Shown: one piece after another, positions 19,845-25,632 of the stretch
Layout: each line of letters starts with the position of its first letter
How positions within the stretch are numbered: position 1 is the first letter of the stretch
IMG/VR virus record: IMGVR_UViG_3300024273_000181
Span: 1-25,894 of that record
DNA from: a virus
Direction: 5' to 3' (one strand)
Length of the DNA stretch: 25,894 nt
The notes under the pieces: model-generated
Told to the model about the DNA's origin: nothing
Databases searched by the model: none
The model's input: the letters and a program-made list of their open reading frames with translations, nothing else
Program-made: the position numbers and the translations under genes

Positions 19845-20825
19845 TTAGATTTCGCACTGACCAGCAGTGCAAGCAAGTGTTTGAGCACCTTCAACGTTGT
19901 CCGTATTCTCATACAGATGATCCCAATTAATCCCTTTAGGCATTTCTGCTTCAAAGGCTACATATTCTTCCTTCGTAATAGCCTCATAAGGAGCCTGTCG
20001 ATACGTCCCTCCATCCATAGGTAGAAAGCTAACACCCGTGATTTCATCAAAATGCTCCCATACTTTAGCACCAATGATTGGCCACTCGTCCTCTTTCACG
20101 CTAATGGTAACGGAGGGCTTATGCTCACAATAATGACGCTGGTACAACAACCAAAGCTGTAAGTGCTTCTCAGCACTCAAGTCTTCACGCAACAAAGCAC
20201 CTTCTTTAACTTGCATAGGGAAGCTGAAGATGGTTGTGCTATCAGGCTTCATTACACAAACCTCTGAAGGAAACCCCTGAATCTTCAAGAAGTCTGTCAG
20301 AGGGTCTTTATTATCGCTCCTTACGCGACGAATAAAGAAACGACTATGTTGAGGATGGAGCCCACTAGCAGTATTACTAAGCTGGCTGACAGTCCCTTCT
20401 GGTTTGATAGCGGTAATTGCCACAGAAGGATTGATGCCAATATCATTAGCAAATTGCTTATTTGTATCCACAGCATGTTGTTTAAGTTTCTCTAGAAGCT
20501 TTGGAAGATTTTCATCATCCGGGTTATTCAATAAAAGATTGTCCAGAGGGCCTGTCATCGACACACCCAGCAAACGCTCTTCTTCTGTATTCTGCTGCCA
20601 AATCTTACGGAGATAAGGGAAGTTTGTCATTGTGGACTGGAAGGTTCCCAAGATGGTAGCCATTTCAATCTTATCTAGCAGGGTTTCTTCTGTGTCTTCT
20701 GGTCGCACAATAACACTGCTTAAATTGCAAAATTGAAAAGGCCGTAGAATAATTTCTGAGCAGGGGTTTGTTCCATAAGCATGGTTACCTGTGTCCGTAA
20801 TAACTTCAATGTTTGTAATTTTCAT
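19845..20825 (-). CDS. nrdJ: Class II ribonucleotide reductase, C-terminal half
   Basis: A 326-residue C-terminal part of a monomeric AdoCbl-dependent ribonucleotide reductase, which makes dNTPs from NTPs by a cysteine radical. The finger-loop motif NPCSE gives thiyl Cys22, Glu24 and Asn20. Cys33 lies 11 residues after Cys22, exactly as Cys419 follows Cys408 in the Lactobacillus leichmannii enzyme. The C-terminal pair Cys319 and Cys324 (ACTAGQCEI) keeps the 5-residue spacing of Cys731/Cys736. Residues 1-16 (MKITNIEVITDTGNHA) are extra and not part of the known fold. The start at 20825 overlaps the HNH stop (ATGA) with AGAGG upstream. Alone it lacks the first redox cysteine and the N-terminal part of the substrate and cofactor sites, so it must work with the product of 21180-22250. 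Confidence 0.9.
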   Translation of the reverse strand: MKITNIEVITDTGNHAYGTNPCSEIILRPFQFCNLSSVIVRPEDTEETLLDKIEMATILGTFQSTMTNFPYLRKIWQQNTEEERLLGVSMTGPLDNLLLNNPDDENLPKLLEKLKQHAVDTNKQFANDIGINPSVAITAIKPEGTVSQLSNTASGLHPQHSRFFIRRVRSDNKDPLTDFLKIQGFPSEVCVMKPDSTTIFSFPMQVKEGALLREDLSAEKHLQLWLLYQRHYCEHKPSVTISVKEDEWPIIGAKVWEHFDEITGVSFLPMDGGTYRQAPYEAITKEEYVAFEAEMPKGINWDHLYENTDNVEGAQTLACTAGQCEI

Positions 20826-21187
20826 TTCCATTCCTCTTCTGCATGTGTAAGCCGATGACAATTTGAACAGAGCAAGATACACTTATCAAGCTCTTCTTTT
20901 ACTACTTTCCATTTTCTCCCCATCAAAGAACCGGGATCGGCTTCTTTTTCTAAAGGGTCTACATGATGGAAATCATATACAGCCGGATGAAATACCCCAC
21001 TACATCTAGAACAAGCACCTCCCTTGTAAGTGATAGCTTTCAGCTTTGTTGCTCTCCGTAGATTGCTCACTGTAGCTGCGTCACATGTTTTACAATATCC
21101 GGCTCTTCCGTCAATACATTGCTTATGTTTTACAAATAAATCTAAAGGTTTTGTTTCTTTACATTTATTACAAACCTTATTAAACAC
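20822..21187 (-). CDS. HNH endonuclease interrupting nrdJ
   Basis: A 121-residue nuclease with an N-terminal zinc ribbon (Cys6-x2-Cys9 and Cys32-x2-Cys35) and an HNH core with Cys59-x2-Cys62, His74-His75-x-Asp77 and Cys107-x2-Cys110-His111. It starts with GTG at 21187, overlapping the stop of the nrdJ N-terminal half by 8 nt, and its TGA overlaps the ATG of the C-terminal half. It is in a different frame from nrdJ, so it is a free-standing gene and not an endonuclease domain inside a protein. The role expected from the family is homing: cutting intact nrdJ alleles of co-infecting phages so that this version is copied. It could alternatively be a domesticated nuclease. Confidence 0.88.
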   Translation of the reverse strand: MFNKVCNKCKETKPLDLFVKHKQCIDGRAGYCKTCDAATVSNLRRATKLKAITYKGGACSRCSGVFHPAVYDFHHVDPLEKEADPGSLMGRKWKVVKEELDKCILLCSNCHRLTHAEEEWK

Positions 21188-22250
21188 TATCTCCTACTTT
21201 CAAATCAATAGCTGCTTTGTTATTTACAAGCTCATTTGACTCAAACGTCTGCTTACTCCCATCCTCTAAAGTCACTACAACCTGCACAGCGCGTCTTCCG
21301 TTCTTATTAGCCTGTAATTTACTAGCATAACGATTAAAAATACCACGCTCACCAGAATGACTCTCATAGATGCTGCTCCATTCTCGCATAAACTGGCCTA
21401 CGGAGGGCTTAACGTCATACACAGCACTGTTGTTAGCTAGTGCCCGTTGTCCGTTACCGTCCCACCAATTACCTGCCTTAGCCTTAGCCATGTTGTCATC
21501 GCCGAGGTCAGATAAACTAATCATTGCGCTTCGTCGAACTCCGCCCACAACAACAACTTCCCCGATCTTACATAGAATGTCATGTGCTTCGAGAGAAGTG
21601 AGTTTTCGACCAACAGCACCCTTGAACTTAGCAATGACGTATTTAAACAAGTCCACCAAAGGCTCGGGGCCACTTGCACGGCCACCGAATGTTTTAAGTC
21701 GTGCTCCGGCAGGTCGTACAGATGATACGTCCCATTTAGGAATCTCGCCTGCATAAAGCAGGGCAAACACCTGTCGTAGCGCCTTAGCCCATCCTTCTTT
21801 GGAGTCTTTAACGCCAATAACAGTGTTGCTATTGTACAACACTTCTGGAACCTCTGGAAGCTTGTTAACATATTTCTGCTCCACACTATAACCAACACCA
21901 GTACCGCAGAGCAGGATGTACATACTCTCATCAAAGCTCTTAGGGTCATCAATTGTCAAGTAGGCACAATTGTAGCCTGCAACGTTCTGTCGGTCAAGAG
22001 CCTCACCAGCGGTCATGATGGAGCGCATCGAAGGAACAACTTCCAAGTTGGTCACAGCCTCTTGTAGACGACCACGGAGAGCCTCTGTAAGTACATAGCC
22101 GTGGTTCTTTTGGAGGTGGGTCCCCATGAAGTCAAAATAACGGCTAACTGTCTCAGGCCAATGCTCTCGTCGGCCTTCTTTGTCTAGGAAGCGGCTGTAC
22201 CGACTTTTGCTGATATACGTCTGGTATGGGGACATTTCATTCTTGGTCAT
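21180..22250 (-). CDS. nrdJ: Class II ribonucleotide reductase, N-terminal half
   Basis: A 356-residue N-terminal part of monomeric AdoCbl-dependent ribonucleotide reductase. VPSMRSIMTAGEAL and then NVAGYNCAYLTI (Cys95, equivalent of redox Cys119) are typical, as are CGTGVGYSVE and WDVSSVRPAGARLKTFGG. The homologous fold runs to about residue 320 (GIFNRYASKLQANKNGRR). The last 36 residues, ending AIDLKVGDSV, are an extra tail with Hint-like strand pattern. The ATG at 22250 has AAGGA upstream; further upstream in-frame starts lie inside the preceding gene. It overlaps that gene by 14 nt. Activity is expected only after association with the C-terminal half at 19845-20825. Confidence 0.9.
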   Translation of the reverse strand: MTKNEMSPYQTYISKSRYSRFLDKEGRREHWPETVSRYFDFMGTHLQKNHGYVLTEALRGRLQEAVTNLEVVPSMRSIMTAGEALDRQNVAGYNCAYLTIDDPKSFDESMYILLCGTGVGYSVEQKYVNKLPEVPEVLYNSNTVIGVKDSKEGWAKALRQVFALLYAGEIPKWDVSSVRPAGARLKTFGGRASGPEPLVDLFKYVIAKFKGAVGRKLTSLEAHDILCKIGEVVVVGGVRRSAMISLSDLGDDNMAKAKAGNWWDGNGQRALANNSAVYDVKPSVGQFMREWSSIYESHSGERGIFNRYASKLQANKNGRRAVQVVVTLEDGSKQTFESNELVNNKAAIDLKVGDSV

Positions 22251-22398
22251 TCGTTCCTTCTTTTTCATAAACATATAATTGGTCAAACTTCTTAAACTTG
22301 TCGACAAAAGCAGCAGCTGCTAAGAAGTCATCAACGGTTTGCCGTCGAAGCCCTCCTGTGATGTAGCTGCTCTTGATATAGGGAGTGTAGTAGCCCAT
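22237..22398 (-). CDS. Small protein upstream of nrdJ
   Basis: A 53-residue protein starting MGYYTPYIKSSYITGGLRR, with an Ala-rich middle (DDFLAAAAFVDKFKKFD) and a charged end. Its ATG overlaps the stop of the upstream gene by one base (TAATG), and its end overlaps the nrdJ N-terminal half by 14 nt, so coupling in the operon is likely. The ribosome binding site is weak. No known domain is recognised. Confidence 0.65.
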   Translation of the reverse strand: MGYYTPYIKSSYITGGLRRQTVDDFLAAAAFVDKFKKFDQLYVYEKEGTNDQE

Positions 22399-22940
22399 TA
22401 CTCAGGCCTGTGTTTTTGTTCAAACCACAAGAGAAACAGCAAGCAGCAAATAGCATGTGCTAGATGGCTTTTGTTTGTCTCGGGGTCTTTCTTCTCTCCT
22501 GAGTTCCAATCAGCAAGGTGTCGATAAGCAGCGTCAATATATCGCTCTTGAGCATTAGGCACAATCTTCCAGTTATCAGATGCGTACTTCTTAGCTCCGA
22601 AGGTGAGTACCTCCACAACCTCTTGCAAGGCTTTGAAGGGCAGCAACGACCACCGAGGCTTATCGCTGTCGTATTTAACTCCCAAGGCTGCGGAGGCGCT
22701 TTTAGCAGCTTCGGAGGCTGAGGCAGAAGCATTCTTGGCTTGGTCAGAAGCGCGAATACGATGAAGCTGTTGAAGCATCTGTTCCATGACCTTCTCTCCT
22801 TCCATGCTAGAGGTGTCATCTGGAACATCCTTCAGGAAGTCTACCGCCACCCACTTAGAGCCTCCAGCATCACAATGAAAGCAGGGGCCTTCGTTCCAAG
22901 GAAGTGCTTCGTAGAAACAGTTGTTACAATTCTGTGCCAT
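22398..22940 (-). CDS. dATP/dGTP diphosphohydrolase-like protein with zinc ribbon
   Basis: A 180-residue two-part protein. Residues 1-30 hold Cys5-x2-Cys8 and Cys20-x2-Cys23, a probable zinc ribbon. An Ala/Ser linker (about residues 68-86) leads to a helical domain from KYDSDKPRWSLLPFKAL through EVLTFGAKKYASDNW, YRHLADW and SHLAHAICCLLFLLWFE. This pattern is that of the DUF5664 family (dATP/dGTP diphosphohydrolase N-terminal, related to MazG-type NTP hydrolases). The acidic residues and His of the helices would bind metal. It lies in the operon with nrdJ and thyX, which supports a role in nucleotide pools. Catalytic specificity cannot be read from sequence. Confidence 0.75.
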   Translation of the reverse strand: MAQNCNNCFYEALPWNEGPCFHCDAGGSKWVAVDFLKDVPDDTSSMEGEKVMEQMLQQLHRIRASDQAKNASASASEAAKSASAALGVKYDSDKPRWSLLPFKALQEVVEVLTFGAKKYASDNWKIVPNAQERYIDAAYRHLADWNSGEKKDPETNKSHLAHAICCLLFLLWFEQKHRPE

Positions 22941-22942
22941 AT

Positions 22943-23407
22943 TTAATTCCTTTTTGCTTCTGGATGATATATTTTCTTTGCAGCTAAGTAGGCTGCGTGG
23001 GCTTCTGCTTCGGTGTCAAAGCAACCCAGATGTTTTTGTTTATAGTTTGTTTCTATCTTCGCCCGCCAACGTACCCCTCTTGCATACGTCCCTCGTACTT
23101 TGTTGTTTTGCAAATTAACACCTTGCGACACTTCCCGTAAATTTAACAATCTATTATTTCTTGGATTCCCATCAATGTGATCTATGACCGTAAGAGAGCT
23201 TTGTGAATGAGCTAAGGCGTAAATTATGCGGTGCGCGTAGTAGAGAGTATAGTCTATGCGAACTTGAATGTAGCCGCCTCGGCTTAAGAAGCCCGCCACC
23301 GTGCCCATTTTTGCAGCGCCTCTGCTTATTTTCCAAAGTAGGTTTCCCGTCTCTTCTTCGTACCGGAGCAACTCAGAGATTCGCTGTAGGGGTAAGTCGT
23401 TGGCCAT
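22943..23407 (-). CDS. HNH endonuclease with AP2-like DNA-binding domain
   Basis: A 154-residue homing-type nuclease. The HNH_3 motif is visible as IDHIDGNPRNNRLLNLR (His77, Asn81, Asn85, Asn89), preceded by a tyrosine-rich AHRIIYAL helix. Residues ~107-150 (YARGVRWRAKI, then HLGCFDTEAEAHAAY) are the AP2-type DNA-binding domain common in phage homing nucleases. AAAGGAAAAT precedes the ATG at 23407. Its first 35 nt overlap the 3' end of the phosphoesterase gene in another frame. It is compositionally AT-richer than its neighbours, suggesting recent arrival. Confidence 0.92.
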   Translation of the reverse strand: MANDLPLQRISELLRYEEETGNLLWKISRGAAKMGTVAGFLSRGGYIQVRIDYTLYYAHRIIYALAHSQSSLTVIDHIDGNPRNNRLLNLREVSQGVNLQNNKVRGTYARGVRWRAKIETNYKQKHLGCFDTEAEAHAAYLAAKKIYHPEAKRN

Positions 23408-24158
23408 ATTTTCCTTTCAGGTATTCAAGACTAAGAAACATTTCATCCGAAGTGCCGTCTTTAACTTCATTTAAAACCACCAAGCCTCTCCAGTGTTTGT
23501 TACTGAGCTGGTCTAAATAGTCCTCATCGTGTTGGTAGTAACTACCGGCGATAATAGCCGTAATCGATTTGCCATCAGCCCTTTTCCCATAAGCTACCTG
23601 CCGACCTTGCTGATGCCCACAAACAACAGATTGGTGTAACTTGGTGATTAACTGCTGGGCTGAACCTGTGGGTCGCCCCATAGCGCCGCTCGGGAAATAA
23701 TGACTAAAACCAATACCACTAATAAAAACAGGCTTTAAGAATCCATGCACTTCCCAGTCTTTTAAATCCAAATGATCAAAGGTCATAAGCCCCTCCAGCA
23801 TAGGGTTGCCTTGGACAGCCCGCGTAAGTCTGCTTTCATGATTACCGAATAAGAAAACTAAACGAGGCTTGAAAACCTTATGTTTGTTTTCCTTCTGTAT
23901 TTTCTGGGCAGCTTTCAACGGTGCTAGAAGAAGTTCCATGCCTTTGTTGCCTGCCTCCACATCTGCCAAATATCGCTTACCTTCAAAGTATTTACTTCCA
24001 GCTTTATCGTGGCTGCTAAGGCTCGGGAAATCCCAATGATCTCCAATATGGACTACAACATCCGGCCTGTAATCAACAATTGCTTGTCCAGCCCACGTAA
24101 GGTGCTCCATTGGAATATTTGGTTTGCACTGTGTGTCAGGAATAACTAATATCTTCAT
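23373..24158 (-). CDS. Calcineurin-like metallophosphoesterase
   Basis: A 261-residue phosphoesterase with all family metal-site motifs in order: Asp8-x-Gln10 near the N-terminus (replacing the usual Asp-x-His), GDHWD (39-43), GNHE (105-108), His153 and GHQQG (181-185, replacing the usual GHTH). Substitution of the canonical His residues is a known variant in phage enzymes. Such proteins hydrolyse phosphodiesters or phosphomonoesters; the substrate here is unknown. It starts in the stop of the upstream gene (ATGA). The last 35 nt are shared with the HNH gene. Confidence 0.88.
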   Translation of the reverse strand: MKILVIPDTQCKPNIPMEHLTWAGQAIVDYRPDVVVHIGDHWDFPSLSSHDKAGSKYFEGKRYLADVEAGNKGMELLLAPLKAAQKIQKENKHKVFKPRLVFLFGNHESRLTRAVQGNPMLEGLMTFDHLDLKDWEVHGFLKPVFISGIGFSHYFPSGAMGRPTGSAQQLITKLHQSVVCGHQQGRQVAYGKRADGKSITAIIAGSYYQHDEDYLDQLSNKHWRGLVVLNEVKDGTSDEMFLSLEYLKGKYGQRLTPTANL

Positions 24159-25005: not shown

Positions 25006-25632
25006 TTAAAAGCTTCCAACAATACTAGGGAATGCCTTAGCAATTTCTGCCTTACACAACAAAGCAACCTCTCGGTGCTCCTTCTGAGTTGCTGGTTCGT
25101 AGCGGATGGCTACATAGTGAAGCCAGCTCCGAAGTGTTCCATTCATAAACATTCGGCTCTTCGTAAGCCCTTCTGGCAGCACCTTACGAGCAACCTCTTT
25201 AGCAATCCCCTTCTTCAAAGCTTCTTGGTAGATGTATTCAGCATCTGCCGCAGCACGATGTTGCATACCAACCCACCAGTTCTTCAAATACTCGTCGTCG
25301 CTTTCAAGGCTGTTCTGCCGGTTCTTACTGTCTTGTAGCCGAGCCTCCCCATATTCAAAGCCGTCAGAAGGAACTTCCGCATAACGCTGCGAAAACTCTT
25401 GAAAGCTAAAGCTTCGATGGCGGAGAATCTGACGGGCAATGTCTCGGGTTGTCTCAATCTCCATGCAGATGTTAACACACTCAAAAGGGCTCCAATGGTT
25501 ATTCTTAATCAAGTATTGAATAAGCTTTGGAGCTGTTGCTTCATTATTTTGATTAGCTGGGTTAGAAACACGGGCCATATAAGCTACTAGCTTCTCTCCC
25601 TCTGGTGTTGCCCACACTGTTGATACCTTCAT
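25006..25632 (-). CDS. thyX: Flavin-dependent thymidylate synthase
   Basis: A 208-residue ThyX, which methylates dUMP to dTMP using methylenetetrahydrofolate, NADPH and FAD. The signature RHRxxSxxxxSxR is present as Arg71-His72-Arg73, Ser76, Ser81 and Arg83. Upstream lies HWSPFECVNICMEIE, typical of the family, and downstream LPEGLTKSRMFMNGTLRSW carries the substrate-binding Arg. The length is normal. It starts immediately after the small membrane gene and heads the nucleotide genes of the leftward operon. Confidence 0.97.
   Translation of the reverse strand: MKVSTVWATPEGEKLVAYMARVSNPANQNNEATAPKLIQYLIKNNHWSPFECVNICMEIETTRDIARQILRHRSFSFQEFSQRYAEVPSDGFEYGEARLQDSKNRQNSLESDDEYLKNWWVGMQHRAAADAEYIYQEALKKGIAKEVARKVLPEGLTKSRMFMNGTLRSWLHYVAIRYEPATQKEHREVALLCKAEIAKAFPSIVGSF

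Follow-up and report, generated by a model that had tools for sequence, protein, structure and literature searches.

In the phage DNA analysed here, the class II ribonucleotide reductase (RNR) gene nrdJ is broken in two by a cassette built around an HNH endonuclease gene. We think it quite probable that this is a homing cassette which splits nrdJ and brings a two-part clip that reassembles the enzyme, as in NrdA of phage Aeh1. The anatomy of the locus, the uninterrupted alleles in relatives, the recurrence of the split, the exchange of the nuclease, a nuclease remnant and the selection on the pieces can all be read from the sequences. The original prediction described the split but overlooked that the tail and head derive from the element, that other phages are split at this site too, and that the nuclease can be exchanged or lost. 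The window, that is, the whole stretch of DNA analysed, is a virus record of 25,894 bases. The nrdJ pieces and the HNH gene lie on its minus strand as follows.

21180..22274, minus strand: NrdJ N-half, with ATG at 22274, including an element-derived C-terminal tail; RTPR match 1.8e-43
21966..21968, minus strand: redox Cys of the N-half (Cys95 in the numbering of the original prediction), aligned with the NNCWF segment of 1L1L
21183..21290, minus strand: C-terminal tail of the N-half, AVQVVVTLEDGSKQTFESNELVNNKAAIDLKVGDSV, 36 residues, absent from uninterrupted NrdJ and homologous to the tails of loci L014, L267 and L268
20822..21187, minus strand: HNH endonuclease gene, 121 residues, GTG start, PHROG 2255, overlapping both nrdJ pieces
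19845..20825, minus strand: NrdJ C-half, 326 residues, with the finger loop carrying thiyl Cys22 (NPCSE), redox Cys33 and the C-terminal Cys319/Cys324; RTPR match 7.2e-44
20790..20825, minus strand: N-terminal head of the C-half, MKITNIEVITDT, element-derived, with the homologous head MKITNIEV in L014
20760..20762, minus strand: thiyl-radical Cys22 (NPCSE), aligned with GTNPCGE of 1L1L

Each half is a single open frame in the same frame as the other, and the gap from the N-half stop to the C-half ATG (21179..20826) is 354 nt, as originally predicted. The coordinates, frames, cysteine positions and cysteine spacings given in that prediction also hold. Other in-frame ATGs of the N-half are at 22268 and 22250. 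The HNH ORF and the N-half stop overlap by 8 nt, and the TGA of the HNH gene overlaps the ATG of the C-half (ATGA). These overlaps indicate that the three genes are translationally coupled.

On sequence grounds, the locus encodes an RTPR-type class II RNR (NrdJ) in two pieces. The NCBIfam RTPR profile matched both halves, partially in each case because each half was scanned alone. Pfam identified the RNR-II insertion domain and the RNR barrel in the halves. Among solved structures, phmmer gave L. leichmannii RTPR (1L1L) as the sole significant relative of the N-half and as the top one for the C-half. The hallmarks of the RTPR type are present, namely the NPC(S/G)E thiyl loop, two active-site redox cysteines and a C-terminal cysteine pair, together with the RTPR profile, the insertion domain and the fold. 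In an alignment of 60 rows, checked for loss of catalytic cysteines, Cys95, Cys22, Cys33, Cys319 and Cys324 were all kept, in columns at least 90% conserved. Redox Cys95 and its partner Cys33 are on different chains.

A second HNH gene (PF13392 HNH_3; 22943-23407, minus strand) is found upstream of the nrdJ pieces and overlaps a metallophosphatase ORF (23373-24158) by 35 nt. Genes of nucleotide metabolism, a dATP/dGTP diphosphohydrolase (22398-22940) and ThyX (25006-25632), are interspersed with nucleases in this region.

The limits of the cassette were set by comparison with uninterrupted nrdJ. In more than 160 such loci the stretch from GIFNR to NPCSE is almost always 31 residues long and reads NGRR-xx-GKEWGTNPCSE or similar. 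In the window, NGRR is followed by 36 foreign residues and a stop, and the C-half opens with MKITNIEVITDT followed by GNHAYGTNPCSE, which places about 12 extra residues before GNHAYGTNPC. Neither the roughly 36 residues at the end of the N-half nor the roughly 12 at the start of the C-half occur in any uninterrupted relative. The in-frame insertion of tail, HNH gene and head is about 498 nt and exceeds the 354-nt gap. The break had been placed about 20 residues before the thiyl Cys; its location before NPCSE stands, but about 12 of these 20 residues are element-derived and not native.

Insertion of the HNH gene into nrdJ, as originally proposed, agrees with the uninterrupted alleles in close relatives. 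A search for the unsplit allele had been suggested, and it was found in L003, L005 and L008, whose NrdJ is 91-97% identical to the halves of the window (N-half 95.6-96.9%, C-half 91.0-94.8%). The split alleles L063/L064 are more distant from the window than these unsplit ones (93.2% in the N-half, 88.5% in the C-half). The locus thus has what marks an RNR put in pieces by a homing endonuclease, a nuclease gene between the halves and uninterrupted alleles in relatives. As in RNRs of the Aeh1 kind, both halves also carry additional tails that intact homologues lack.

Two other kinds of nrdJ locus were noted. In L154-L159, from other phages, an intact nrdJ is directly preceded by an HNH gene that overlaps its start and is related to that of the window (53-57% over the conserved part); HNH genes of this type are a possible free-standing source of the cassette nuclease. 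In L218, this loop of nrdJ holds a short in-frame insertion (GRRQSLKSWTNEPYLFGCNPCSE), which may be the scar of a lost cassette or merely a sign of a tolerant loop.

We screened the fetched nrdJ loci for C-halves not continuous with their N-halves, which gave L014 and L200/L201. The latter two were also fetched as L306 and L307, and L308 is alike. Scans with the tails of L014 and L200/L201 added L267 and L268/L269. In all of these, L014, L267, L268/L269 and L306-L308, nrdJ is split at the same site as in the window. The tail and head of L014, L267 and L268 are homologous to those of the window, with 57-60% identity and invariant VTLEDG..K, NE.V, A, L, GD, KI and IE. The L267 tail matched copies of the window tail in L313-L316 with E values of 2e-8 to 4e-9.

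The gene between the halves is not the same in these loci. In L014, L267 and L268/L269 it encodes an Endonuclease_7 relative, of endonuclease VII type (Pfam E values 2e-22 to 1e-25). The L014 nuclease, the one of this group that was compared, had no BLAST similarity to the HNH protein of the window. In L306-L308 the split is retained and only a 21-residue remnant is left, which resembles the end of an Endonuclease_7-type nuclease and runs over the C-half start; 3 of 4936 scored shuffles equalled the remnant match. The halves of L306-L308 are in different frames, and the L306 insert is only about 200 nt. The L306 tail and head show only weak similarity to those of the other loci (28% identity, hhalign probability 21%), although none of 2000 shuffles reached their score. 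This nuclease-free split nrdJ (L306, 3068-5199) was present in three metagenome records that differ by at most one base, so the two-gene form is not a one-off assembly error.

When 2.9 million viral contigs were scanned with the patterns VTLEDG[ST]K and GD..KI, relatives were found solely in these split nrdJ records. By these comparisons at least five phage lineages have such a split, and their nuclease genes differ or have been lost; the count is a lower bound because sequence patterns detect near relatives only. No relatives of the tail were found in plasmids, nor by pattern scan in 84,980 bacterial and archaeal genomes. Matches of the tail by tblastn in GenBank phages (a Rhizobium polymerase, Gordonia, Listeria) were weak, with E values of 0.03 to 8; those in Rhizobium and Gordonia were on the strand opposite to the annotated genes, and the matches were dropped as chance. 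A match to MKITNIEV in L262 was not in nrdJ. Just downstream of the split nrdJ, tRNA genes are found in L267 (5651-5724) and L268 (4961-5041).

On a maximum-likelihood tree of 94 NrdJ rows, the split alleles are scattered and each sits among uninterrupted relatives. The six split rows need six changes, and starred branches force every one of them. Transfer gains, losses or a combination would each fit, and the tree alone does not choose between them. Between the window and L063, synonymous differences affect 0.25 of sites in the insert compared with 0.47 in the halves (P 2e-5). At a distance from the insert, nucleotide divergence is 0.15-0.24, and around it 0.05-0.09, with the dip on both flanks. 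The low divergence in and around the insert fits recent copying with co-conversion of the flanks. Together with the patchy distribution, it is indirect evidence that the HNH protein may act as a homing endonuclease.

To follow selection on the pieces, we compared the window with L063. The dN/dS was 0.062 for the N-half, 0.092 for the C-half and 0.077 for the HNH gene. Part of the divergence between the two may predate the insertion, and the insert dS of 0.30 was therefore taken as the shortest time in the split state; with this dS, dN/dS was at most 0.14 for the N-half and 0.26 for the C-half. The tail had 0 nonsynonymous and 4 synonymous changes, and tail and head together had 1 nonsynonymous against 9 synonymous (P 8e-6). 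Between the L267 and L268 tails, 7 of 28 changes were nonsynonymous (P 6e-9). These counts indicate that both halves, the tail and the head are under purifying selection at the protein level; nonsynonymous changes in the tails are few, which argues that the tails are selected as protein. The tails also persist where the nuclease is gone, and it is more likely that they serve the NrdJ halves rather than the nuclease.

These numbers bear on whether the split inactivates NrdJ, leaving a decaying gene with a selfish nuclease. The insertion adjoins the active-site loop, and a patchy distribution would suit short-lived damage. Against decay, dN/dS in the halves is 0.06-0.09, and it stays low with the insert dS, where every amino-acid change is assigned to the time after the split. 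The halves are free of stops and frameshifts, the catalytic residues are kept and the tails are conserved between lineages. A second RNR would have weakened the argument, and none was found in the 11 split records, which are metagenomic fragments of up to 40 kb, all possibly incomplete. The original view that nothing looks decayed is borne out, and we regard an inactive NrdJ as unlikely.

The AlphaFold models that we examined are single read-through chains, in which the N-half frame continues through the insert with stops as Gly, so that about 120 junk residues separate the halves. The window model superimposed on 1L1L with a Z of 33.9 over 596 residues and an rmsd of 3.5. It has tail strands at 331-336 and 341-345 and a head strand at 486-491, all of low confidence (pLDDT about 57-74 in the tail, 50 in the head). 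In the L268 model five strands are assigned to the tail (pLDDT 74-86), of which two exceed two residues in length. The L268 head forms a nine-residue strand at about 78, compared with 23-37 for out-of-frame junk in the same chain. Tail and head are thus predicted to form ordered strands in L268, with a less clear prediction for the window. The head strand has no neighbouring strand in sequence, so pairing with the tail is likely, as judged from the strand assignments. A profile of tail and head gave weak SH3-like matches in the PDB (Crk, E 0.3-0.4), the best match (0.035) being unrelated, and these were not counted as evidence.

Tail and head could instead be a split intein or a degenerate form of one, and protein trans-splicing would then join the halves, as reported for the fractured NrdJ of ocean metagenomes. 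The nuclease gene between two RNR halves would suit this, the tail segment LEDG...LKVGD resembles intein block B by eye, and intein-interrupted nrdJ is on record, with two cases from ocean metagenomes cited (PMC3653736). However, tail and head come to just about 50 residues, no nucleophilic Cys, Ser or Thr follows NGRR at the tail start, and the head does not end in an Asn before Cys, Ser or Thr. Pfam and NCBIfam gave no match to a Hint or intein model, even at E 10. We consider an intein very improbable.

Removal of the insert from the mRNA as an intron with the HNH gene inside is hardly credible. Introns are frequent in phage RNR genes (PMC3653736), but covariance models found no group I or group II intron: no family passed the threshold when the window and four split loci were scanned, and the insert gave none at E 5. 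Moreover, ORFs fill the insert, the tail and head show selection at the protein level, and the L306 insert measures only about 200 nt. Least probable of all is ribosome bypass or read-through of the insert, as in T4 gene 60, to give one fused protein: the halves are mutually in frame in the window, L014, L267 and L268 and the gap in L306 is short, but 14 stop codons interrupt the N-half frame within the insert, translation of the C-half can begin at a start of its own that overlaps the stop of the nuclease gene, and the L306 halves are in different frames.

We therefore return to the homing cassette with a clip. From the evidence above we infer homing, assembly through the clip and enzymatic activity. 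The cassette of about 500 bp (tail, HNH gene, head) sits in the nrdJ loop just before the thiyl-radical finger loop and divides the enzyme into two polypeptides, of which the N-half gains about 36 residues and the C-half about 12. The HNH enzyme would cut or nick uninterrupted nrdJ at the empty site, and the cassette with flanking DNA would be copied in. Conservation, selection and the model suggest that tail and head, on separate chains, fold into one small beta domain that clips the halves together. The RNR barrel would then assemble without RNA or protein splicing, each chain contributing one redox Cys. With the clip present, the nuclease would be dispensable for the enzyme, and in other lineages it has been exchanged or lost while the split stays. 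The product is a real and recurrent two-chain class II RNR, and probably a functional one.

Whether the split protein clip, two short peptides completing a beta domain in trans, and not the nuclease forms the conserved core of a class of mobile elements is in our view an evenly balanced question. If so, what lets such an element enter an essential active-site region is a reassembly device of its own, a third solution beside introns and inteins, and its nuclease can be exchanged, or lost to leave a permanently two-chain enzyme. A selfish gene would have a route by which to turn a monomer into a lasting two-subunit enzyme. The short natural peptide pairs may serve as protein-joining tags. Close uninterrupted alleles exist, so the cost and role of the clip are directly testable.

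The pieces of the fractured NrdJ from ocean metagenomes are reportedly joined by protein trans-splicing, unlike the clip proposed in the window. That fractured NrdJ with a split intein (Dassa et al. 2009, cited in PMC3653736) resembles the window in an nrdJ interrupted in environmental phage DNA and in its association with a homing endonuclease. In the freely accessible literature that was searched, we found no paper on a nuclease that splits a class II RNR within its barrel where splicing plays no part. The original prediction knew of no class II case, but split class II RNRs as such are on record: P. aeruginosa NrdJa/NrdJb (PMC4520616) and nrdJ-a/nrdJ-b of Thermus phage phiYS40 (PMC3653736) are, like the window, class II RNRs in two chains. 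NrdJab is active as two chains, with the full catalytic machinery in NrdJa and thiol exchange in NrdJb (PMC4520616). In phiYS40 we checked in the sequence that NPCGE lies in the first piece, the second being the C-terminal part. In both systems the cut falls downstream of the catalytic barrel and no nuclease gene separates the pieces, whereas the window is cut before NPCSE and has a nuclease gene there. L. leichmannii RTPR (1L1L) shares the fold, the catalytic cysteine positions and the insertion domain with the window NrdJ, but it is one chain of 739 residues and the window enzyme is two chains.

To our knowledge, NrdA of phage Aeh1 is the one worked example in which the element that split an enzyme also supplied the domains that reassemble it. 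These domains are reportedly the tails of the two NrdA halves. Aeh1 NrdA, split by mobE, is reported to be a functional two-chain enzyme (PMC2988022, citing the Aeh1 study), and the title of Crona et al. 2011 (NAR 39:1381; title via PMC3267527) credits mobile-element-derived protein interaction domains. As in the window, an HNH gene splits the catalytic RNR subunit in the active-site region, and the gene order (NrdA-A, mobE, NrdA-B) is alike. Aeh1 NrdA is class I and the window enzyme class II. In Aeh1 the break follows NLCIEIALPT and so lies downstream of the thiyl Cys, whereas in the window it lies upstream of that Cys. MobE is a different nuclease from that of the window, and the tails have no evident sequence likeness. 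The Aeh1 logic would thus operate here in another RNR class, at another site and repeatedly, with homologous clips, two nuclease families and one nuclease loss. Unlike Aeh1, the window-type cassette recurs at one site in several lineages and with different nucleases.
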